From NCBI GenBank assembly GCA_030627285.1, contig DAOUSJ010000004.1, positions 1-46,016 of the forward strand: a stretch of 46,016 bases of DNA, in the 5' to 3' direction. Shown piece after piece: positions 2,011 through 36,133 of the stretch. The DNA comes from Methylococcaceae bacterium. GTDB lineage: Bacteria; Pseudomonadota; Gammaproteobacteria; Methylococcales; Methylomonadaceae. How positions within the stretch are numbered: position 1 is the first letter of the stretch; each line of letters begins with the position of its first letter. Below the pieces are notes generated by a model. It was given only the letters and a program-made list of their open reading frames with translations. It did no database searches and had not been told where the DNA came from. The position numbers and the translations under genes were made by a program.

Positions 2011-2586
2011 ATGACTGTTTCATTAAAAAAAGGTGGCAATGTAAACTTGAGCAAAGAAGCTCCAGGATTAACTCATATCAGAATTGGCTTAGGTTGGGAC
2101 TCAAGAGCCACTGATGGCACTGATTTTGATTTAGATGCTGTGGGTTTCTTGTTAAAAGCTGATGGTAAAATTAGTACAGACACTGATTTTATTTTTTACA
2201 ATAACTTAACCTCTGGTTGTGGATCTGTAACTCACGAAGGTGATAATACCACTGGTGATGGCGCAGGTGATGACGAATCAGTAAAAATTGACTTAAATGA
2301 TGTTCCAGCTGTAATTGAAAAAATAGTTTTAGCTGTAACGATTCATGATGCAGATAATCGCAATCAAAATTTCGGACAAGTTAGTAACGCCTTTATTCGA
2401 GTTTTAAACCATGTCAATGATGTTGAAATCGCACGCTATGATTTATCTGAAGATGCAAGCGTAGAAACTGCCATGATTTTTGGTGAAGTTTATCGTAATG
2501 GCTCAGATTGGAAATTTAGAGCGATTGGCCAAGGTTTTGCTGGTGGCTTAGGTCCTTTAGCTAACAATTACGGCGTATCTATTTAA
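2011..2586 (+). CDS. TerD-family calcium-binding stress protein (copy 1)
   Basis: This 191-residue protein is a complete TerD domain, the family linked to tellurite resistance, phage inhibition and general stress, and known to bind calcium. It begins [18 protein letters not shown], shows the acidic calcium-site segments DFDLDAV (about 49-55) and [12 protein letters not shown], and ends in the typical [21 protein letters not shown] tail. A good ribosome-binding site (GAGGA) precedes the ATG. None of the usual partners (TerA, TerB, TerC, TerZ) is in the window. A second TerD gene lies 2.7 kb away on the opposite strand, on the far side of gap-pyk. The role here is not known: isolated TerD paralogues may act in envelope or metal stress without conferring tellurite resistance. 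Confidence 0.9.
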
Positions 2587-5250: not shown

Positions 5251-5832
5251 TTATACATTTACCCCATAACGCTTACATACTGCAAATAAGCCTCCGGCAA
5301 ATCCCTGACCCACGGCCGAAAATCTCCACTCACCATTTTTTAAATAAATTTCACCAAAAATCATCGCAGTTTCAATCGAATAATCTTCAGTTAAATCAAA
5401 ACGCACAATTTCGGTATTATTTTCATCATTAACTACCCGAATAAAAGCATTTTCTATTTGCCCAAAATTCTGTCCTTTAGTGTCAGCATCATGAATAGTT
5501 ACAACTAAAGCTATTTTTTCCACGTCAGGACTCTGAGATAAACCCTCTAGATCAATTTTTACTACCTCATCATCACCAGCGCCACCGCCAGTTAAATTGT
5601 CACCCATATGCTCTACAGCACCTTTGGCTCCAGTTAAATTATTGTAAAAAATAAAATCCTCATCAGTTCTAACACTTTCTCCAGCTTTCAAAATAAATGC
5701 TGATGCGTCTAAATCATAAGTAGAACCATCTGTAGCTCTCTCATCCCAACCCAAACCTACTTGAATTTTTTTTAAATTTGGAGCTTCCTTAGATAAAGAA
5801 ATTCTACCGCCTTTGCTTAAAGATACACCCAT
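5251..5832 (-). CDS. TerD-family calcium-binding stress protein (copy 2)
   Basis: This second TerD protein has 193 residues when started at the ATG at 5832, which is placed 6 bases after a GAGG site and gives the family-typical MGVSLSKGG start. The frame extends 8 codons further upstream, but that start has less support. It carries the acidic TYDLDASAF and GAGGDDEVVKIDL-type calcium-site segments and the [10 protein letters not shown] ending. It is similar to the copy at 2011-2586 along its whole length, but is clearly an old, diverged duplicate rather than a recent one. It is transcribed divergently from the rph-rdgB pair and converges on pyk. Its exact role is unknown. Confidence 0.9.
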   Translation of the reverse strand: MGVSLSKGGRISLSKEAPNLKKIQVGLGWDERATDGSTYDLDASAFILKAGESVRTDEDFIFYNNLTGAKGAVEHMGDNLTGGGAGDDEVVKIDLEGLSQSPDVEKIALVVTIHDADTKGQNFGQIENAFIRVVNDENNTEIVRFDLTEDYSIETAMIFGEIYLKNGEWRFSAVGQGFAGGLFAVCKRYGVNV

Positions 5833-5977
5833 GACCCACCTCGTTACATGTTTCAAAAAAAGTAATTTTAACGTGTTAAGACAATAAGATTAAGCTTAAT
5901 ATTTTAAGAGTAGTAAAAATTATTATCCTACAATAAAACCAGTTATACTGGTGAGTTATATTTTCAATGGAAAACCT

Positions 5978-7871: not shown

Positions 7872-8696
7872 TTATACTTTTGACAGCAAAAAATCCAACC
7901 ATGTAGTAGGTAAAATACGTTTTAAAAACCCAAATATGTACGTAGGAACAGTAACATAATATCGAGGCTTAGGAGATTTAGTATGAATTATTTTGAGAAC
8001 TTTTTTTGCTACTGCAGAGGCAGGCAATGTAAAAGGAGCAACAGAATCTTGCAGCTGCAACCTAGATTCAAGAATATCATAAGATGATTTATGAATACTT
8101 TGTGCAGGTAAAATATATTTTTTATACATCAAAAAAGCATTTTTTCTAAAAGAACTTTCAATAGGTCCAGGCTCTACTAAGGAAAAATAGATATTTGTAC
8201 CAATAAATTCCAAACGTAAAGTATCTACTAGACCTTCTAAAGCAAATTTGCTAGAATTATATGCACCACGATATTTCATAGCAACAAACCCTAGAACAGA
8301 GCTATTATAAATAATTTTACCGTGACCCTGATTACGCATTAGAGGTAAAATAAGATTAGTTAATTCATGTGTACCAAAAAAATTGGTTTCAAATTGATTT
8401 CTTAAAGCATCTCTACTAAGATCTTCTACTGCACCAGGTTGACCAAAAGCTGCATTATTGAATAAAACATCAATTTTGCCCTGAGTTAAATCAACAAAAT
8501 CAGCTACTGCTAAACGAATGCTATTACTAGAAGACAAATCCAGTTGCAAAGCTTCAAATCCTGCTTTTCGCAAAGCAATTACATCTGACATGTTTCTTGC
8601 AGAAGTAATAACCCTAAAATTTTTGGAAGCTAAAAATTTAGCAGTTGCAAAGCCGATACCTGAGGAGCAACCAGTGATAAATATAATTAAATTCAT
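7872..8696 (-). CDS. Short-chain dehydrogenase/reductase
   Basis: This 274-residue NAD(P)-dependent oxidoreductase belongs to the classical SDR family. The Rossmann motif TGCSSGIG is near residue 8, the NNAAF stretch (NNAG-type) follows, and the catalytic Ser and YNSSK (Tyr-x-x-x-Lys) are present. The VEPGPIESSF segment is typical of the retinol-dehydrogenase-like subgroup. A C-terminal hydrophobic stretch (YIFGFLKRILPTTWLDFLL) may associate with the membrane. The substrate cannot be deduced, and neighbours give no pathway clue. Upstream lies the DnaA-box-rich gap. Confidence 0.88.
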   Translation of the reverse strand: MNLIIFITGCSSGIGFATAKFLASKNFRVITSARNMSDVIALRKAGFEALQLDLSSSNSIRLAVADFVDLTQGKIDVLFNNAAFGQPGAVEDLSRDALRNQFETNFFGTHELTNLILPLMRNQGHGKIIYNSSVLGFVAMKYRGAYNSSKFALEGLVDTLRLEFIGTNIYFSLVEPGPIESSFRKNAFLMYKKYILPAQSIHKSSYDILESRLQLQDSVAPFTLPASAVAKKVLKIIHTKSPKPRYYVTVPTYIFGFLKRILPTTWLDFLLSKV

Positions 8697-8701
8697 GAGC
8701 T

Positions 8702-8980
8702 TACAATCTTACAGCAAAAAATAAAATAATGTCAATATTTAATTTAAAGATTATTAAAATATATTATTTTATTATTAGCAAATGCATTTTCTGTGGATAA
8801 CCCTCTTTTTTCATTTAAATTCAATAATATAGCCTGTGGATAAACCTGTGGATAACCCTGTGTATAACTTATTTTGAAAATTCTTTAAAAAACATTAGAA
8901 ATCGAATATTTAACAGGCAATGACTGCCGTTTTTAGATATACTTGTTATTTATTTCAATTTAAACAAATTAATTAATAAA
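8702..8980. other. Candidate replication origin or DnaA-controlled region
   Basis: This non-coding gap between divergent genes contains four perfect matches to the DnaA box (TTATNCACA), all read on the minus strand: TGTGGATAA at 8792-8800, 8835-8843 and 8847-8855, and TGTGTATAA at 8859-8867. The last three start exactly 12 bases apart. To the left is a very AT-rich block (about 8740-8790) of the kind that unwinds at origins, and to the right another AT-rich stretch. Known bacterial origins combine exactly these elements. Alternatives are a DnaA-titration site or DnaA control of the moxR promoter. No dnaA, dnaN or mnmG is in the window, so the origin call is an inference. Confidence 0.55.
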
Positions 8981-9943
8981 ATGTCAGAGTCTTTTACCGC
9001 TATAAGTAAATTAAAATTGTTTATTAAAAATAATATTATTGGTCAAGATGAATTTATAGAAAAAATAATGATAGCATTATTAGCAGATGGTCATTTACTA
9101 GTAGAAGGAGCTCCAGGATTAGCAAAAACCAAAGCTATAAATATACTCAGTAAGGGTATTGAAGCAAACTTTCATAGAGTTCAATTTACCCCTGATTTAT
9201 TACCAGCAGATTTAACTGGATCTGAAATTTATAGACCACAACAAAATACCTTTGAATTTCAAGCAGGACCTTTATTTCATAATTTAGTGTTAGCAGATGA
9301 AATTAATCGTTCTCCTGCTAAAGTACAGGCTGCATTATTAGAAGCAATGGCAGAAAGACAAATAACAGTTGGGGCTAATACTTATAAATTACCAGGATTA
9401 TTCATGGTAATGGCAACTCAAAATCCTATTGAGCAAGAAGGAACATATCCTTTACCTGAAGCTCAATTAGATAGATTTTTATTACATATAAAAGTTGATT
9501 ATCCAAAACCTAATGATGAAAAATTAATTTTACATTTAGCTAGAAGAGAAGCTTTAAAAACAGAGATTGATTTAATAAAACCAATTTCACAAAAAATAAT
9601 TTTTCATGCAAGAAAAGAAGTTTTAAATATTCATATGAGTGAGAATTTAGAAGAATATTTATTACAAATAATTTTAGCCACTAGAAATCCAGAAATTTAC
9701 GATAAACAATTAGCAGGTTGGATTCAGTATGGAGCAAGCCCTAGAGCAACAATAGCTTTAGATCGTTGCAGTCGTGCTAAAGCTTGGCTAGAACAAAGAG
9801 ATTTTGTAAGTCCAGATGATATTCAAAATATAGCTTTAGATGTATTAAGGCATAGAATTATTTTATCCTATGAAGCTGAAGCTGAAGGAATTACCCCAGA
9901 TTATTTTATTCAGCAATTAATAGCAAAAATTGCAGTACCATAA
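8981..9943 (+). CDS. MoxR-family AAA+ ATPase
   Basis: This 320-residue cytoplasmic ATPase is thought to act as a chaperone that remodels or activates von Willebrand-type partner proteins, here very probably the two encoded downstream. Walker A is GAPGLAKT (43-50), Walker B LVLADE (102-107) followed by INRSPAKVQAALLEAMAE, and the sensor region has MATQNPIEQEGTYPLPEAQLDRFL. No clear Shine-Dalgarno site precedes the ATG. It opens a five-gene operon with gaps or overlaps of fewer than 20 bases, and its promoter must lie in or beside the DnaA-box region. Similar clusters in relatives are linked to envelope integrity and stress survival. Confidence 0.93.
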   Translation: MSESFTAISKLKLFIKNNIIGQDEFIEKIMIALLADGHLLVEGAPGLAKTKAINILSKGIEANFHRVQFTPDLLPADLTGSEIYRPQQNTFEFQAGPLFHNLVLADEINRSPAKVQAALLEAMAERQITVGANTYKLPGLFMVMATQNPIEQEGTYPLPEAQLDRFLLHIKVDYPKPNDEKLILHLARREALKTEIDLIKPISQKIIFHARKEVLNIHMSENLEEYLLQIILATRNPEIYDKQLAGWIQYGASPRATIALDRCSRAKAWLEQRDFVSPDDIQNIALDVLRHRIILSYEAEAEGITPDYFIQQLIAKIAVP

Positions 9944-25080: not shown

Positions 25081-27393
25081 TTAAGGATTAATTTGATATA
25101 ACATATCACGCAAATAGGTAAAATAAGCGCGATTTTTTTCACCTAAGGTTTTAATGGAAATTAAATTAGCCGCATAATTAGCAGTAATTATAGCGCAACT
25201 ATTAAACTCTGAATTTTCTAGTTTAATTTGATTTGCATAGCAAAACGCTGGCATTATTTCTGTGTATAAAGCAATAATTAATCTTGACATGATTAATGGA
25301 GTTAAATAATTAAATTGAATTTCAATTTTTAAGGCATTGCTATCATCAAACGGAATTTCATTTGTAGAGTTTTGTAATAAAGAAGGGATTAAAAAATTAT
25401 CATCATTAATTTGATAGGCTAACGATAATTGCAGCATTATTTTAATAATACAATTTATATCTTCTATGGCATTATCACTTAGGATATTTTTTATTTCATT
25501 TAATGAGATTTTTCCATTTTGTTCAGTTGCACTATTATTAAATAATTTAGATAAAGATTTGGTTATCCAAGTAGGGTTGCAAATAATTGCATGTTCTTTT
25601 TGTTTGTTTGCTGGTGAAATATAAACAATATCCCCAAAATAAATTAATAAATTAATAAACTGAAGTTGTGCTTTAGAATCTGTAATTCCATGTTCATTAC
25701 ATAGAGAAATGCCATCTAAATAATTAATAAATAATTTTTTTTCTAAAGCGGATTTTAATAAAATTTCATCAGCAGAAACCTGTAAGTTGACGCTAGGTAT
25801 TTTTTTTAAAACTTTGTATAGCGCTAACTTAAAATCTTCAATGCCAGTTTTTTGTAAACAAGAAACTGAATAATAACCTATAATATTTGGAAATCTATTG
25901 TTTAAGAATTTATAATCAAGAGTATGTTGTTTTAATGAATCAGATTTATTTAATATAATAAAGATTGGTAATTTAGGATTAATATTTTCAATTCTTATCA
26001 ACCATTGTATAGCTTGTGAATTTTGATCCAAAACTAACAAATAAACACTTCTAGGCAAAAAAAAAGTTTGATTTAATGTTTGTAAAGTATGTTTTCCACT
26101 AAAATCCCAACAATTTAATTTAATGTCTTCATGCTGCCAATGATGAATACTAATACCATTAGTATTAACTTCTTTAGAATTAAATTGTTCGCCTATTAAA
26201 GCTTTAATGAAAGAAGTTTTTCCAACTCCTTGATCGCCAATAATATGAATTTTCAAATGTTTTATACTGGATTTTTTTTGCTGCGTTAATTGTTTATAAT
26301 AATCTTCAATAACTAAATTACCCCGTTGAATAATATCAATAGGCGGAGATTTAAGTGGATTTTCAATTACACTAATACCTTCGCCACCATTATTTAATTT
26401 TATGGGTAAATTTAATTCTAGCAACCATTTAGGTAGGTCTTGAATTTTATTTTTGCTTAAATAAAGATGGGTTAAATATTTACACCCAATTAGAGCATTA
26501 ATATCTGTAATTTGATTGTTTCTTAAATTTAACTGTACTAGTTTTTTGGATTTTTCTAATGCTTGAATATTATTAATAGAATTTGATTCTAAATATAAAT
26601 GAGTTAAATTATTTAATAATTTAAGTGCTTTAATGTCTTGGACTTTATTAACCCTTAAATCTAGTATTTTTAGATTAATTAAATTATTAATTGGACTTAA
26701 ATTATAAATTTCATTAAAGCTTGCATGAAAATTTTCTAAACAAGTTAAATGGTTTAGAGCTGTAATATCTGTAACTTTATTATTATTGATGAATAAAGTA
26801 GATAGCTTTAAGAGGCTATTGATTTCTTGTAAAGATATTAGTTGATTGAATCTTAAGTCTAATTCATTAATGTTTGTAAGCTTATCAATGCCAATTAAAT
26901 TAATTAATTTATTATCACTTAAATTAAGTTTTTGTAGAGCAAATAGCTTAGATAAAAAAATTAAGTCACTGATTTTATTGGAGCTTAAGTTTAAGGTGGT
27001 TAAGTTGATGATTTTTTCAAAGACTCTAATATCTACAATATCATTAGCTTGCAAATTTAATTCTTGTAATTGGAGTAAATTTTTTAACGGGTGAATGTCT
27101 GTAATAGCATTTTTTTGCAGATTTAATGCTTGTAATAAGGAGCATGTTTTTAATGCAGATATACTGGTAATTTGATTGGAAGATAAGTTTAATTTAATTA
27201 ATTGTTTAAATGGCTTAATAAAACTTAAAGTATTTAATTTACAGTTATGCAAATTCAAACCAATAACTTCTTGATTGTCATTTAATGCATAACTACAACG
27301 AGAGCTTACATTCATTATCACTTCTAGCTTTACCAATTTAAAAGTAATATTGAGTAATTGTTCTAAAGATTGAATAGGTTTTATTTCTGACAT
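25081..27393 (-). CDS. Roco-family GTPase with leucine-rich repeats (LRR-Roc-COR)
   Basis: This 770-residue cytoplasmic protein has the full Roco layout. Residues about 40-326 are 13 consecutive leucine-rich repeats of exactly 22 residues (L-x-x-L-N-L-x-x-N-x-I-x-D-I pattern). A linker (ENPLKSPPIDII) leads to a Ras-like Roc domain with P-loop GDQGVGKT (385-392), switch II DFSGK (429-433) and base-recognition NKSD (481-484). The rest (about 490-770) is a COR dimerisation domain with the PTWITKSLSKL segment. No kinase domain follows. Roco proteins are nucleotide-controlled dimers related to human LRRK2; bacterial roles are largely unknown. It lies between cysZ (30 bases) and purD (23 bases) on one strand, so it is probably part of the same transcript. 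Confidence 0.88.
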   Translation of the reverse strand: MSEIKPIQSLEQLLNITFKLVKLEVIMNVSSRCSYALNDNQEVIGLNLHNCKLNTLSFIKPFKQLIKLNLSSNQITSISALKTCSLLQALNLQKNAITDIHPLKNLLQLQELNLQANDIVDIRVFEKIINLTTLNLSSNKISDLIFLSKLFALQKLNLSDNKLINLIGIDKLTNINELDLRFNQLISLQEINSLLKLSTLFINNNKVTDITALNHLTCLENFHASFNEIYNLSPINNLINLKILDLRVNKVQDIKALKLLNNLTHLYLESNSINNIQALEKSKKLVQLNLRNNQITDINALIGCKYLTHLYLSKNKIQDLPKWLLELNLPIKLNNGGEGISVIENPLKSPPIDIIQRGNLVIEDYYKQLTQQKKSSIKHLKIHIIGDQGVGKTSFIKALIGEQFNSKEVNTNGISIHHWQHEDIKLNCWDFSGKHTLQTLNQTFFLPRSVYLLVLDQNSQAIQWLIRIENINPKLPIFIILNKSDSLKQHTLDYKFLNNRFPNIIGYYSVSCLQKTGIEDFKLALYKVLKKIPSVNLQVSADEILLKSALEKKLFINYLDGISLCNEHGITDSKAQLQFINLLIYFGDIVYISPANKQKEHAIICNPTWITKSLSKLFNNSATEQNGKISLNEIKNILSDNAIEDINCIIKIMLQLSLAYQINDDNFLIPSLLQNSTNEIPFDDSNALKIEIQFNYLTPLIMSRLIIALYTEIMPAFCYANQIKLENSEFNSCAIITANYAANLISIKTLGEKNRAYFTYLRDMLYQINP

Positions 27394-29203: not shown

Positions 29204-29680
29204 TTACCAACAAGTTTCAATTGTGAGATCATTTTTTAAGCCAATTAAATCTTTTTTGCCAGTCTGATCTAAAGAAAAAATTCCGCAATCATCACCTAAT
29301 TGATCGTTAATAGGTCTGGCAATAATAAGATAGGTGTTATTGGTGGCATTAGAAATTTTTAATTCATAATGCGCAGAATTTACATCAGCGCCATCTATAG
29401 GACTAAATTGGGGAAAAACATGTGGCAAACCAGTATCAGTTGGTGAAGATTGACTGCCAGCTGCATTTTTATAACTGCCTGAGCTAGTAAAGTGTCGTTC
29501 CATAGCATTGGCAAAACTTATTAATGCGCCGGTAGCATCTGCACGTCGAGTTTTTATAATTGAATTTTGGTAGCTGGGAAAGGCAATAGTGGTCAAAACG
29601 CCAATGATTGCAATAACTATCATTAATTCTACTAAGGTAAATCCTGCTTGTGAATGCAATTTGTTTGTGTTGGTAAGCAT
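29204..29680 (-). CDS. pilE: Type IV pilin-like minor pilin PilE
   Basis: This 158-residue prepilin has a short basic leader ending in Gly, then the class III signal GFTLVELMIVIAIIGVLTTIAFP, where the pre-pilin peptidase cuts before Phe. The sequence after it (SYQNSIIKTRRADATGALISFANAMERHF) is characteristic of PilE minor pilins. Two cysteines near the end (DDCGIFSL and IETCW) can form the usual C-terminal disulfide loop. Its place at the end of the fimT-pilV-pilW-pilX-pilY1 series matches Pseudomonas and Xanthomonas clusters. It primes or decorates the pilus tip with PilY1. Confidence 0.9.
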   Translation of the reverse strand: MLTNTNKLHSQAGFTLVELMIVIAIIGVLTTIAFPSYQNSIIKTRRADATGALISFANAMERHFTSSGSYKNAAGSQSSPTDTGLPHVFPQFSPIDGADVNSAHYELKISNATNNTYLIIARPINDQLGDDCGIFSLDQTGKKDLIGLKNDLTIETCW

Positions 29681-29693
29681 AATATTAAAATTC

Positions 29694-32600
29694 CTATTGT
29701 CTCAATTCTTGCCAAGATAGTCTTCCAACTTTATCATCGGATAATTTTGAAATTTTACGAGATTCAAGTACAGATCCATCATCAGTTCCTGATGTGTATT
29801 GGGTGTTATCCAAAAAGCTGGATGATGATGGTAAGCCGGATTTAAATAATTCACCTGTGGGTGAATATTGTACGGTTACAGTTTCACCATTTTCATCGGT
29901 AAAGGTTACAGTAATTAAATCATTGGAATCTACAATTCCATCACCATTTAAATCAAATATAGGTTCAGATGCGGGCCCACCATTAAGTTGGTCTACAGAT
30001 ATTAAAATACCAGTGCCACCTGATTTACATGATCTGGAATCTGGAATCCAGGTATTAAAGAAAAGATTTTTTCCGCGAAGATCTGGATCTACAATTACAC
30101 GTTCACCTTTATTTTCGGTGAAATTAATAAACCAACCTTTGGCATCGGCTTCGTAATCAACATCATGGTCAGTCAAAACTTGAAATTGGTCGCCGACATC
30201 AGTGCCGTTATTTAATAATGGTCCAGATATAAAAGTTTGTTCTACTAAATTTCCAGGCGTAATTGCAGGTATACCTTTATCCCAAACTCCATAAAAAGAT
30301 TGCATTGATTGGTCACTAATATCCCCAGAAACTAAATATTGTCCGGTGCCAAAGAAAACTAATACATCTGCACCTATGCCTAATTCTAATGGATGTTTAG
30401 TTAAAATTGGACGACTAGTAATTGGTTGGGGTTTGCCTTTATAACTGGCTTTAAATAATGGTGAGGGTTTGCCAACTTTGTTGTAAGCTACTTTCCATTG
30501 AGTAGGGGCTCTAGCACTGACATCAAATGCCCATAAATTGCCTTTTAAATCACCAGCGTAAACTCTGTCAACTACACCATCACCATTAATATCAGCTGCT
30601 TGTGGGGTAGATAAACCATTACAATTACTTTTTACGTTTAAACAGTTTCTATCTACAATCGAACCTACACCAGTGTTGATTTTGAAGTAATCTTTACCTA
30701 GTGTCCATTTGCCGTCTAAACCACCGTCAATAAAAACTATAAATAAGGATGCCCTACCATTGCCACTGCTGTTATAACCATTGCCAAAAATTGCAGCCCA
30801 GCGACCATTATTCATTAGTGCAATGGCGGGCTTACTAAAGGTAAAGCCTAGATCTGCATCGTCGGTATTTGAGAATTCCCATAAGACTAATTGTTCAGCA
30901 TGGGCAGTAGTTTCAGTAAATAAATCTGGATCAGTAATATCTAAGGCAAATAAACCTCTGCTACCACCACGCCCACCGCCAATTAATATAGTGTGCCAGT
31001 CTTTACTATTGCCATCTGAATTACTATCAATACCATCTTTTTTATCTATATAAATATCTGAAATTGCTAGTTGCATATCTACATAAAATCTATGCGTGTA
31101 ATCTGGATCAGTTAAATAATGCAAACCTGAAGTGGTAGATTTAAAATCAAAAATTTGAAAAGGGACATAGGCTAATACTTCTTCACCGGTATTGGCATCG
31201 AATCCATGTAACATGCCATCATTTGAACCAGCATAAATTACTGCTTGGCGGTCTTTAGTAACACCTGTTTTAAAATCAGCATAAGTGTTTACGCCTTTAG
31301 TGCTTGGAAATGGAGATTTACGTGGCCAAGATAATTTTGGTGCGCCTACAAATACTGGGTCAGAGTGAATTATATCACCCAACAATTTTTCTCGCGCTCG
31401 AAAACGATACTTACCACCTCTACCTTTTTCATGTTTACGACTGCCGCGAATAAATTCTAATCTGGCTATCATTTCTTCTAGGCTGGAACGTTTACCATTA
31501 GGTTCAATTAAGAAATCTGATTTTTGCACCCCGGCTATATCATTCCAACGTAATGGTACTCCACGGTGTTTAGAAATGTTATAGGTAAAGATATTTCTAG
31601 TTTTAACTGGGTTTGGAAGTGCATCTAATTTAGCTGCAGCTGACCATTCAGGTTGACTTGCTACTTCGCCAGTTTCTGGATCTAATGTAAAAGCTAATAA
31701 ATCGCCACTCCATTTATTATTACTACTATTAAATAGTGCTTGATAGACAAAACTATTGCCAGTTAAAGTGGTAGTATTAAATGCTGCCGAAGATGCACTG
31801 CCTAAGCGATCACCAATATTAGCAAAGGCTTCTTCTAAACCTCTAGAAACTTTTTCTGGACTATCAGCAGAAATAAATCTACCTTTAGAATTAAAGGCAG
31901 CATGCCATAGGTCATCAATTTTAGCTGGGTAGCTTGTAAAAGGGTCGCCCCAAGAAGAACTTTGCTCAACTAAGGCTGGATTTGGGTTGAAATCACCATC
32001 AGTATCTCTTAATTTGCCTGATACTCCAAAGGCTACAGTGTAAGTAACCATATGTTGATGCGTAGCACTATCAAAAGTATTCTTTCTAACTTTATTGTCT
32101 AATGGACTTAAATCTTTCATGTAATAGTGTTTGGCAATATCAGCTACAGTAACTGATTTACGATCACCATCAGCATCACCAATAGAAGCGGTTGGTTGAT
32201 CACTTTTACTCCAATAACCGTCGGTCATTAATACGGTAAAATTTTGTTGACATTCTTCGGTAATTGGGTCTGCTCTTTTAATGCCATCTATAGTGTCATT
32301 GTCCAAATATTTTCCTGCACGTTCTAAGCCGGAAAGTAAAGGTGTATTGCCACGTCCCCATTGCATTTTAAAAAATCCAGCTAATAAGTCAGTATTATGC
32401 TGTATAGATGCACCTTCAGCTGGAATTTCAATAAAGTTGGTAATAGTTTCTTGATAGGGAAATTTTATGCTGTTATTAATAAAATTTAAACCGTAGCGAT
32501 ATTCAGAATTATTAGAAACTACGTTTGCAATTGCACCTTTGGCTACAAAAGATCTTTTACGTGCGTATTGATACCAATTAGCAATATTTTGTTTGGTTTC

Positions 32601-33437
32601 AGAAATAGTTTTATCAGCTAATTCAGGGTGAGATTTAGAGCCAGATAATGTTTTAGCTGTTCCAATTTTTTCAATTGCACCATCATAAGTTATATGTTCT
32701 ACGATAATTGAAGAACCTTTAATTGTATAGCGAGTATGTTCGTCCCACCAATCTACTAAATCATTAGTTCCTTCAGTTTTATTAATAGTTAATCCTAAAG
32801 GACGTTTACCACTAAATCCATGTGTATCTTGCCAAACATGATATACAAAACCATCTAAATTTCTGAGTTCAGCATAACCTTTACTGCCAGAAATTGGATT
32901 GCTTCTAGCAGCAGTAAAACTAGCTCTATTCATACCACTACCATCACCACGTTCCCAAGGCGCATAAGTTGTAGTTGGATTATAGTAAATAATATTTAAA
33001 GCTGAGGCTTTAACGCGCCAGTCAATATTTTCTGTGGCTATGCAAAGTTCTATTGAGGTTCCAAACATGTAAGCACCTGTTTCTTCACATTGAGAGCTAT
33101 TTAAATAAATATTGTCCTGTTCATTATAAAAAATATATTCAAATTCTTTCCAATCATTGACATTTGAGAAATCGTGTAACAAACCATTGTCTAATAGTCT
33201 ACTTTCGGAACATTTATCTACACCATTATTATAATCACATACATGCCAATGCGGTTTGGTTAGAATTTCCCAGTCCATAGAACCAGAGTCATCAATTTCT
33301 AAAAAAACATTGGGCGCAGCGTCATTAGTAGTGAATAAAGGCGAATCACTTAACTTTCCTGGTGAAGCTGTAACTGGAGTAGTAAATAAAGCTAGAAAAC
33401 CTAGTTTAAACACCCACGCCATTTTATTAATAGCCAT
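29694..33437 (-). CDS. pilY1: Type IV pilus tip adhesin/assembly factor PilY1
   Basis: This 1247-residue secreted protein sits at the tip of the pilus and supports its assembly, adhesion and surface sensing. A signal peptide ends near Ala24. A von Willebrand A-like region starts with DDSGSMDW (49-56). The C-terminal half is a beta-propeller with calcium loop DINGDGVVDRVYAGDLKGNLWAFD near residue 950, the site known to control pilus retraction in Pseudomonas. A second EF-hand-like loop, DLNGDGIVDSNDL (1162-1174), lies beyond the propeller near the C-terminus. It sits between pilX and pilE, 13 bases from pilE. N-terminal region diverges strongly, as usual in this family. Confidence 0.95.
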   Translation of the reverse strand: MAINKMAWVFKLGFLALFTTPVTASPGKLSDSPLFTTNDAAPNVFLEIDDSGSMDWEILTKPHWHVCDYNNGVDKCSESRLLDNGLLHDFSNVNDWKEFEYIFYNEQDNIYLNSSQCEETGAYMFGTSIELCIATENIDWRVKASALNIIYYNPTTTYAPWERGDGSGMNRASFTAARSNPISGSKGYAELRNLDGFVYHVWQDTHGFSGKRPLGLTINKTEGTNDLVDWWDEHTRYTIKGSSIIVEHITYDGAIEKIGTAKTLSGSKSHPELADKTISETKQNIANWYQYARKRSFVAKGAIANVVSNNSEYRYGLNFINNSIKFPYQETITNFIEIPAEGASIQHNTDLLAGFFKMQWGRGNTPLLSGLERAGKYLDNDTIDGIKRADPITEECQQNFTVLMTDGYWSKSDQPTASIGDADGDRKSVTVADIAKHYYMKDLSPLDNKVRKNTFDSATHQHMVTYTVAFGVSGKLRDTDGDFNPNPALVEQSSSWGDPFTSYPAKIDDLWHAAFNSKGRFISADSPEKVSRGLEEAFANIGDRLGSASSAAFNTTTLTGNSFVYQALFNSSNNKWSGDLLAFTLDPETGEVASQPEWSAAAKLDALPNPVKTRNIFTYNISKHRGVPLRWNDIAGVQKSDFLIEPNGKRSSLEEMIARLEFIRGSRKHEKGRGGKYRFRAREKLLGDIIHSDPVFVGAPKLSWPRKSPFPSTKGVNTYADFKTGVTKDRQAVIYAGSNDGMLHGFDANTGEEVLAYVPFQIFDFKSTTSGLHYLTDPDYTHRFYVDMQLAISDIYIDKKDGIDSNSDGNSKDWHTILIGGGRGGSRGLFALDITDPDLFTETTAHAEQLVLWEFSNTDDADLGFTFSKPAIALMNNGRWAAIFGNGYNSSGNGRASLFIVFIDGGLDGKWTLGKDYFKINTGVGSIVDRNCLNVKSNCNGLSTPQAADINGDGVVDRVYAGDLKGNLWAFDVSARAPTQWKVAYNKVGKPSPLFKASYKGKPQPITSRPILTKHPLELGIGADVLVFFGTGQYLVSGDISDQSMQSFYGVWDKGIPAITPGNLVEQTFISGPLLNNGTDVGDQFQVLTDHDVDYEADAKGWFINFTENKGERVIVDPDLRGKNLFFNTWIPDSRSCKSGGTGILISVDQLNGGPASEPIFDLNGDGIVDSNDLITVTFTDENGETVTVQYSPTGELFKSGLPSSSSFLDNTQYTSGTDDGSVLESRKISKLSDDKVGRLSWQELRQ

Positions 33438-33479
33438 GTTATGATCCTACCAAATTTGGAGTAAATAAATGCAACATAA

Positions 33480-34004
33480 TTAAAAGCGTTTGCCGTAATG
33501 TGATCTTAAATAAACTTGACTACTATCTTGCTTACCTGTGCCTTTTGCAGTTACAGTAAAATAATACACATCTTCATTATTGAAGTCGTCGTTATAGCCA
33601 CCTACATTGACTCCAGAGCCAGAGTTACCAATACTTTTACGAATGTATTTAATAAAATAGCGCGGCTTGCTAGTTATTGAATCTACTGAAAAATCATATT
33701 CTCGGGAATTATTCGCAGTCCAAGTGTTAGCATCTGCAATATCAGGATAGGTATCTGTATCACTTAATAAGCCATTATTACCATCAAATGCATCCGCTGA
33801 AGTAATTACTTCTATTTCCAATTCTCCACCACGTAAGCCTACTTCAGTAGTTTGAAAAGATACGTTTTGGTCTTTATAGTTGCTAGCCATTTTTTCTTCT
33901 AGACTAGTTACTTGAGTGCCTGTGACTCCAATTAAAGTTAGTAATAATAATATCATCATGCTGGCTATTAACACAGCTCCAGATTGTTGCCTAAATTTAT
34001 ACAT
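33480..34004 (-). CDS. pilX: Minor pilin assembly protein PilX
   Basis: This 174-residue protein opens with QQSGAVLIASMMILLLLTLIGVTGTQVTSLEEKMASN, the PilX N-terminal pattern: a hydrophobic helix without the strict Gly-Phe-Thr motif of other pilins, then the conserved T-S-L-E-E-K-M. The rest is a variable globular head. It lies between pilW (14 bases) and pilY1 (42 bases) and forms part of the minor-pilin priming complex at the inner membrane. Confidence 0.9.
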   Translation of the reverse strand: MYKFRQQSGAVLIASMMILLLLTLIGVTGTQVTSLEEKMASNYKDQNVSFQTTEVGLRGGELEIEVITSADAFDGNNGLLSDTDTYPDIADANTWTANNSREYDFSVDSITSKPRYFIKYIRKSIGNSGSGVNVGGYNDDFNNEDVYYFTVTAKGTGKQDSSQVYLRSHYGKRF

Positions 34005-34018
34005 TTTAAGCTCCTTAA

Positions 34019-35053
34019 TTATCGTAAGCGATTACGAATAGCTATAGTAGATGAAAATACTCTACGAATTTTTCTATCTTTGGGCGTATATTCTTTACCA
34101 TTGTAAGTATATGGAAAATATCCAGCCGCTAAATTATCATTTAATGATGCTACCAATAAATTTACCCGAATACTAACTACCTTACTCATATCCAAGCCAC
34201 TTATGTTTGAGGTAGTATAATAATCAGCAGTAAAATCATTATTAATGTCAGCACCATATAAAATTTGCATATCTTCAATGCCTTCTACTAAAGCTTGTTT
34301 CACACCATTAACAGTTCTAAAAAATGCAGGTTGATTATTGGATTCATCTATTGAATAAGTTACATAATTAACTTTATATAATTGTGAGTTTTTTGGAAAT
34401 AATTTTCTAAAACTTCCAGTACTATTTCCAGGGCTGCGCGCACTAGTTTTAGCATCTGCGGAATTTTTTATATGTCCAACAAAACCATTTGTACTAGTAG
34501 AATTATTGGTAATTTGGAATAAATTACCCTTTGAGCAATCACTTAAAACTACCACATCACCATTTTTAAAATCACTACCATCATCAATTTGAATATTTTG
34601 AATTTTATTGGTTGGTTGCTTAACTACAAAACTTTCTGAAGGTTCAACTCCTCTTAAAGTTATAGTATCAGAGCCATCCCAAACACCATTATCATTGCGG
34701 TCATGATTTGCATTATTATGCACACCATTATCATTATTAGTGCCAGTAATGCCTTTAATATCTGCATTCGGAAAATTTCCAAACACATCACTAGCGTTTA
34801 AAATGGATTTAATATCAGTAGATCTTTTTGGACAGCCCCAATAGTCGGAATTTCTGATACTGCGACTAATAAAATCCATGGCAAAACGTCCATTTTCTTG
34901 CATTCTGGACATATTCTCTTGCATTAAATAACTTTGTTGACTGCTTTGAAAAATTTGCATGACCCCACTCATAAGAATTAATCCTAGAACTAAGGCAATC
35001 ATTAATTCTATAAGTGTAAATCCAGCTTGTAATCTTGTTGGTGAATGTTTCAT
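34019..35053 (-). CDS. pilW: Minor pilin PilW
   Basis: This 344-residue prepilin-like protein has the class III signal GFTLIELMIALVLGLILMSGVMQIFQSSQQSY, followed by MQENGRFAMDFISRSIR, both typical of PilW. The long C-terminal head is divergent and Asn/Asp-rich. It overlaps the end of pilV by four bases (ATGA), so translation is coupled. It works with PilV, PilX, FimT and PilE to start pilus assembly and display PilY1. Confidence 0.92.
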   Translation of the reverse strand: MKHSPTRLQAGFTLIELMIALVLGLILMSGVMQIFQSSQQSYLMQENMSRMQENGRFAMDFISRSIRNSDYWGCPKRSTDIKSILNASDVFGNFPNADIKGITGTNNDNGVHNNANHDRNDNGVWDGSDTITLRGVEPSESFVVKQPTNKIQNIQIDDGSDFKNGDVVVLSDCSKGNLFQITNNSTSTNGFVGHIKNSADAKTSARSPGNSTGSFRKLFPKNSQLYKVNYVTYSIDESNNQPAFFRTVNGVKQALVEGIEDMQILYGADINNDFTADYYTTSNISGLDMSKVVSIRVNLLVASLNDNLAAGYFPYTYNGKEYTPKDRKIRRVFSSTIAIRNRLR

Positions 35054-35532
35054 AGAATAAAACTCATTTCAAAACTGGGGTCAGTTTCATCAATAGCATC
35101 ATCACGATTATCATCCCAAGTTATGGTAACTGTGAATACACCTGCATTTGAAGCACTTATACGACCTAAACCACTAGGTAAAATAGTATTTACATCTTGA
35201 TGCCACGAAAATAAATCTTGGTGCGCCATGTCTGTAGGTGAGCAAGCACTAACCTTGGCATAAAGTAGACATTTGCTTTTTTTAATTGCATCTTCAGGTA
35301 AAATTACAGAGTAGGTGCTGTTATTAAATAATTTTGCCTCTACTTCATTGGCGCGAATTTTATCTGCTATATTAGCTGAGAATTGTGTTGCTTGGGTACG
35401 ATGATAGGCACTGAAATTATTTCGTAATCCAGTCATTTGTAAGCCTGCCAGACCTAATAAACCAATTCCTAAAATCATCATAGCAACTAAGACTTCAATT
35501 AAAGTGAAACCTTTATTTAGCTGGTGTTTCAT
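35050..35532 (-). CDS. pilV: Minor pilin PilV
   Basis: I start this 160-residue prepilin at the ATG at 35532, giving MKHQLNKGFTLIEVLVAMMILGIGLLGLAGLQ, the standard PilV N-terminus; a TTG at 35547 in the same frame is less likely. A GAGG lies 9 bases upstream, inside fimT. It overlaps the fimT end by 20 bases and pilW by four. After the leader helix come the family's RNNFSAYHRTQATQFSANIADKIRAN stretch. Two cysteines occur in the head (KSKCLLYAKVSACS). Confidence 0.9.
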   Translation of the reverse strand: MKHQLNKGFTLIEVLVAMMILGIGLLGLAGLQMTGLRNNFSAYHRTQATQFSANIADKIRANEVEAKLFNNSTYSVILPEDAIKKSKCLLYAKVSACSPTDMAHQDLFSWHQDVNTILPSGLGRISASNAGVFTVTITWDDNRDDAIDETDPSFEMSFIL

Positions 35533-36133
35533 CTTCTTCTGCCTCAACTAAAGTAAATGGTGATTTAACGCATGAAGTAAGCTCGTCTCCAGCAGAATTT
35601 TCTGGAATACCATTTTGATCGGTATCTAATCCAACTCTACTTCTACCAACTACATTAACAATTATTAAACGAGATGTATAAGCTTCAGGTAAATCATTTT
35701 TATCATTGTTATCACATAACACAAAACTACCGTTAGGACTAATGCCAGATGCACGATAAGTAATTCTATTAACAAACCTAGTTGTGCCTCTTAAGGTTAA
35801 ATTATTTCTTAAAGCTTCGTGATCTCGTAAAATAGTATCTGACCCATCTTTACTGCCATTGCCATTAATATCAGTAAAAACTAGCCAGCCATCCTCCCAA
35901 AAATTACCTTTTTTACGAATCGTGACTGCTTGATTTCTTTTGATAGCCTCACTTCTAGCAAAATTTAAAGTGCTAATAAATTCATTGGCATTAGTGGTTA
36001 AGCGACTATTACGAATAGTAATATTAAAACTAGGCAACCCAATTGAAATAACTATGGCAGCAATTCCAATAGTTACCAATAATTCAACCAGTGTAAAACC
36101 AGAATTAGATTGCAACCCTGTTCGATAATTCAT
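35513..36133 (-). CDS. fimT: Minor pilin FimT/GspH family
   Basis: This 206-residue prepilin has the signal GFTLVELLVTIGIAAIVISIGLPSF followed by NEFISTLNFARSEAIKRNQAVTI, the hallmark of FimT/GspH proteins. FimT in some species binds DNA for natural transformation. The C-terminus ends in an acidic tail (EAEEDETPAK), unusual for a DNA-binding version, and overlaps the pilV start. It is the first gene of the pilin operon; 79 bases separate it from yggX upstream, where a TTGACT sequence (36200-36205, minus strand) could be a -35 element but lacks a good -10. Confidence 0.9.
   Translation of the reverse strand: MNYRTGLQSNSGFTLVELLVTIGIAAIVISIGLPSFNITIRNSRLTTNANEFISTLNFARSEAIKRNQAVTIRKKGNFWEDGWLVFTDINGNGSKDGSDTILRDHEALRNNLTLRGTTRFVNRITYRASGISPNGSFVLCDNNDKNDLPEAYTSRLIIVNVVGRSRVGLDTDQNGIPENSAGDELTSCVKSPFTLVEAEEDETPAK

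Follow-up and report, generated by a model that had tools for sequence, protein, structure and literature searches.

A gene-free gap between an SDR oxidoreductase gene and moxR in a Methylococcales bacterium holds four closely spaced DnaA boxes, which raises the question of whether it is the chromosomal replication origin (oriC) at an unusual location or a DnaA-titration or regulatory site. We analyzed the whole 46,016-bp stretch of DNA containing it (the window), which is contig C13 of an assembly (G000) of 117 contigs and 1.93 Mb that is 94% complete. The closest named relatives of its moxR were found in Methylomicrobium, Methylobacter, and "Methylococcaceae" MAGs. We hold with high confidence that the gap is the oriC of this bacterium, with a core organized as that of Escherichia coli oriC. 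Such an assignment would place the oriC of a methanotroph group where a search by the usual rules, next to dnaA or next to mnmG, would miss it; we found no paper on an oriC beside moxR in the open-licence literature.

The DnaA-box cluster and strand asymmetry upstream of moxR

The original prediction described four perfect DnaA boxes in one orientation, the last three starting 12 bp apart, in a gene-free gap next to an AT-rich block. The positions, the shared strand (all four boxes run head-to-tail), and the spacing were all confirmed, as were the lack of genes and the AT-rich block (Table 1). However, only three boxes are perfect copies of TGTGGATAA; the fourth, TGTGTATAA, carries one substitution. 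The sequence TGTGGATAA occurs 51 times in the 1.93-Mb assembly, and two or more copies fall within 100 bp only in this gap. The paired-box pattern TGTGNATAAC-N0-3-TGTGNATAA likewise has its single genome-wide occurrence there. The gap thus holds an intergenic DnaA-box cluster that is unique in the genome, one of the marks by which an oriC is recognized. The neighbors are, as had been noted, not the classic origin genes, and no mnmG was recognized among the genes of the window; if the gap is an origin, its location between SDR and moxR is an unusual one, as one branch of the prediction had it.

Table 1. Features of the moxR-upstream gap and its flanking genes (window coordinates)
Feature	Position	Strand	Remarks
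SDR oxidoreductase gene	7872..8696	-	Left-hand neighbor, conserved within the genus
Intergenic region with the very probable oriC	8697..8980	+	284 bp, gene-free; between the SDR gene (-) and moxR (+)
Predicted AT-rich duplex-unwinding element (DUE)	8721..8780	+	90-93% A+T; relatives AT-rich at the equivalent place (upAT 0.70-0.90)
DnaA-trio-like DUE end (TAT-TAT-TAG), TTATTATTAG	8769..8778	+	Separated from R1 by exactly 13 bp, the E. coli spacing
DnaA box R1	8792..8800	-	TGTGGATAA read on the + strand; R1 equivalent in relatives and E. coli
Degenerate IHF-like site, ATTCAATAATATA	8819..8831	+	Two mismatches to WATCAANNNNTTR; exactly 18 bp past R1
DnaA box 2, left array	8835..8843	-	TGTGGATAA; offset +43 from R1 also in G001, G003, and G005
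DnaA box 3, left array	8847..8855	-	TGTGGATAA; 12-bp pitch; offset +55 conserved
DnaA box 4	8859..8867	-	TGTGTATAA; 12-bp pitch
Putative right-arm remnant	8881..8918	+	Aligned counterpart, in congeners, is a set of three or four inverted TTATCCACA boxes
moxR, MoxR-type AAA+ ATPase (PF07726)	8981..9943	+	Conserved neighbor on the right

Gene orientation confounds the raw cumulative GC skew of the window, which had two minima of nearly the same depth, one at 2 kb and one at 9 kb. This was resolved with the per-gene GC skew at third codon positions (GC3 skew), expressed on the plus strand, which is independent of gene direction. The GC3 skew was negative in nine of the 10 genes left of 8696 and positive in 25 of the 26 right of 8981 (Fisher p = 1e-6), and a minus-to-plus change is the polarity of an origin. 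The best likelihood change point of the contig was the gap itself (8696-8981), at which the skew passes from -0.30 to +0.34 (dLL 85), a value reached by none of 5,000 gene-order permutations; the skew is read here within a contig that has only 8.7 kb of sequence to the left of the gap, the assembly being in 117 contigs. Across 16 further contig stretches of this genome, which total about 370 kb, the dLL was 29 or less, and most of them show one prevailing sign.

Two relatives extend this result. In G014, a near-complete genome with a 4.98-Mb contig, the minimum of the cumulative GC skew lies at 3406-3407 kb, within about 2 kb of the orthologous boxes (3407997-3408111), whereas dnaA, with its own box pair at 3396.4 kb, is 11 kb away. 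The per-gene GC3 change point of G014 misses the boxes, falling at 3388.7 kb, and only the raw cumulative skew has its minimum beside them, so that G014 is better evidence for the region than for the gap itself. In G001, a 40% sample of the genome placed the terminus near 2.42 Mb and its antipode near 0.93 Mb, with moxR at 0.909 Mb; since the part from 0 to 0.9 Mb is mixed and the noisy local skew resolves the site no better than to tens of kilobases, this fits the moxR location and supports it without proving it. The skew signature that the original prediction looked for at an origin was therefore found, as a minus-to-plus inversion at the gap in the GC3 skew of the window and as a raw cumulative minimum adjoining the orthologous boxes in G014.

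The DUE-R1-IHF core, its relocation, and the right arm

From left to right, the gap contains the AT-rich DUE, TTATTAG, 13 bp, R1, 18 bp, the IHF-like site, and the head-to-tail boxes. For comparison we took the E. coli oriC from a complete genome (NZ_AP018784; L262), where it lies beside mnmG and mioC and reads TTATTAG-N13-TGTGGATAA-N18-GATCAACAACCTG. The spacing of the core is identical in the window, the AT-rich DUE is on the same side, and both have a left half with head-to-tail DnaA boxes; the E. coli-type core TTATTAG-N13-R1-N18-IHF is thus present, with an IHF-like site that has two mismatches. As background, IHF matches with at most one mismatch occur at 0.2% of window positions. The genes for IHF alpha, IHF beta, and HU-beta are encoded in the genome. 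The BUS criterion of PMC8287927 asks for an AT-rich DUE next to a DnaA box and for trio-like repeats no more than 16 bp away from the box; the TAT-TAT-TAG end, 13 bp before R1, falls inside that distance. On the other hand, the two origins differ in their neighbors (mnmG and mioC in E. coli, SDR and moxR here) and in their array boxes, which are near consensus with a 12-bp pitch in the window but of low affinity in E. coli. Unlike E. coli oriC, the window also has no right half and no GATC site in the gap (8697-8980).

We searched the DUE-R1 pattern in 61 genomes and read out the matches with their flanks. At least nine other Methylococcales genomes were found to carry the module on the upstream side of moxR (G001, G003, G005, G010, G014, G018, G019, G050, and G056). 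In other genera of the family (G007, G013, G020, and G046; L279, L267, L274, and L281), the same DUE-R1-IHF module with DnaA boxes differs in its location, being beside dnaA, either in the dnaA-dnaN gap or upstream of dnaA. G019 has one module at moxR plus one at dnaA. Nearly all of the modules beside moxR or dnaA have an IHF match with no or one mismatch at exactly +18, the exceptions including G050 and L104, whose best match is at +19. Because at least 10 genomes, that of the window included, have the module upstream of moxR and others have it beside dnaA, oriC has changed place within the family, the same DUE-R1-IHF module being relocated. Since moxR and dnaA are only 10 to 13 kb apart in several genomes, a short-range shift of oriC is easy to imagine.

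The congeners G001, G003 (the GLR68 MAG), and G005 have the module at the same place between SDR and moxR, with the same R1 and the same offsets of +43 and +55. Unlike the window, they have a one-mismatch IHF site and a right arm with three or four boxes in inverted orientation, and the orthologous gap carries seven to 10 boxes in two opposed arms. This gap is also the densest box cluster of G001 (eight boxes per 250 bp versus three to four in the next best, in a 1.2-Mb sample), and the runner-up (908248-908320) also adjoins moxR, immediately downstream of it. Congeners thus have another group of boxes just 3′ of moxR (G001:C2:908279-908320, i.e., L067:1501-1542; G005:C17; and G002:C123), such that boxes flank moxR on both sides; in the window, moxR and the next gene are 18 bp apart, with no boxes between them.

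The window aligns through the right arm of the congeners at about equal length, but the boxes are gone: no inverted DnaA box with two or fewer mismatches was found in 8868-8980. As G046 and E. coli also have both halves, the alignment is most simply read as a right inverted arm that probably decayed in the window lineage. DUE unwinding and DnaB loading in E. coli depend strictly on the left DnaA-oligomerization region with its IHF site, and DnaB loading is increased by the right region (PMC10380432). According to the account given in PMC4451416 of Stepankiw et al. 2009, E. coli remains viable at slow growth when oriC has no right half. The deletions described there resemble the window in retaining only the left half and the DUE, but they are engineered, initiation is perturbed, and full DnaA is present. 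The window would offer a natural left-half-only origin that can be compared with these mutants.

The proposal that the gap is an oriC is thus supported by the boxes themselves, the GC3 inversion, the lack of a cluster on the dnaA side (see below), the orthology with congeners, the E. coli-identical DUE-R1-IHF spacing, and the presence of the IHF genes. From these features we infer that DnaA and IHF bind, and that unwinding and firing occur, at the moxR-upstream gap. DnaA would bind R1 and the head-to-tail array, while IHF, bound between R1 and the array, would bend the DNA. The DnaA oligomer would then melt the AT-rich DUE and load the helicase. What operates today would be the left-half origin that remained after the right inverted half decayed, similar to the E. 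coli right-half deletions.

The shortened dnaA of the assembly and the possible mode of initiation

The only dnaA of the assembly lies beside dnaN on contig C60 (L233:4402-5001) and encodes 199 amino acids, consisting of DnaA_N, the first 60 AAA+ positions, and the last 23 to 24 positions of the domain-IV profile. Of the 441 residues of the congener protein, only 1-162 and 399-441 have a match in it. In the congener alignment, about 705 bp are missing in frame from the interior of the gene, at ATTGG, a short shared sequence; the bulk of both the AAA+ domain and domain IV is thereby absent, and the remaining frame is open, with no stops. No second dnaA copy or other fragment was found in the 94%-complete assembly, and the size and match of a DnaA-like hit on C113 point to Hda. 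Among relatives whose sequence covers the locus completely, including G001 and G005, dnaA is intact; that of G003 is a fragment cut by a contig end.

We asked whether the assembly is shredded throughout, which would account for the gap in dnaA, but this was not supported: 122 of the 124 genes compared with relatives had no such gap, and dnaA was the sole simple internal deletion, the other case being a protein of about 1,300 amino acids in the relative that aligned in overlapping pieces. The ungapped genes speak against a generally broken assembly; the deletion may be real in the cells, or it may be an assembly or minority-variant artifact.

The dnaA region was rejected as the origin of this genome. 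The original prediction had named a box cluster beside dnaA as a possible rival site, and there was none: the rpmH-dnaA gap holds only one box with two mismatches, the dnaA-dnaN gap holds none, and the per-gene GC3 skew of C60 shows no clear switch at dnaA.

The shortened gene gives rise to the strongest rival explanation, which we regard as a real but minority possibility. It is compatible with the oriC identity of the gap and disputes only its present mode of action: the gap would be an ancestral oriC that is no longer normally used, DnaA having been lost, initiation having become DnaA independent, and the origin decaying in its right arm and IHF site. The gutted dnaA, the lack of a second copy beyond the Hda-like match, the singular status of the deletion among the 124 genes, and the decayed right arm fit this scenario, as does the small size of the genome (1.93 Mb, among congeners of 1.6 to 3.0 Mb), and symbionts without DnaA are known (PMC7198777). 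However, the strand asymmetry around the gap is strong and clean, so that the gap was the origin for a long time. R1 and the DUE are intact, as is most of the left array; the genes for IHF and the Hda-like protein are kept; and the dnaA frame is stop-free, with a deletion that may be artifactual.

If the deletion were true, it would capture an early stage of DnaA loss, which is otherwise known mainly from lineages in which the loss is complete, and the gap would be a recently abandoned or a DnaA-independent origin. It is conceivable, though we consider it less probable than its opposite, that the bacterium is giving up DnaA, with a decaying left-half origin at which replication starts without DnaA or with a mini-DnaA. 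Such a mini-DnaA would retain domain I, the end of domain III that carries Walker A, and the last part of domain IV.

Nonorigin readings and other genes of the window

Our preferred reading, an oriC upstream of moxR, was also weighed against functions other than that of an origin. The other branch of the original prediction, a datA-like DnaA-titration site or a DnaA-regulated moxR promoter, turned out to be very unlikely. The boxes do lie upstream of moxR. A DARS would have head-to-head DnaA boxes, whereas those of the gap are head-to-tail. The datA site of E. coli, it is true, likewise combines DnaA boxes with an IHF site (PMC10380432). However, the skew inverts exactly at the gap, DUE, R1, and IHF-like site are spaced as in E. 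coli oriC and amount to more than a set of boxes, and no other box cluster in the genome could serve as the origin. A role as a moxR promoter is further disfavored by several relatives that do not have the moxR-upstream module but have it beside dnaA, as an origin would. That the boxes are a chance cluster of functionless AT-rich nonamers can be practically dismissed, even in an AT-rich genome, as the original prediction had anticipated: in 60 first-order Markov simulations of the window, the number of TGTG[GT]ATAA copies per strand never exceeded one in any 76-bp stretch, against four in the window, and the conservation of the array and its spacing in congeners already refutes it.

Several other genes of the window deserve mention. 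Two similar proteins, encoded at 2011-2586 (+) and 5251-5856 (-), flank the gap/pyk genes, and the second is a match to Pfam TerD. An LRR-Roc-COR (Roco-type) GTPase is encoded at 25081-27393 (-). Farther along, at 29204-36133 (-), a run of pilin-like proteins with N-terminal prepilin motifs surrounds a 1,247-amino-acid protein; by eye, this looks like a type IV pilus minor-pilin/PilY1 cluster.
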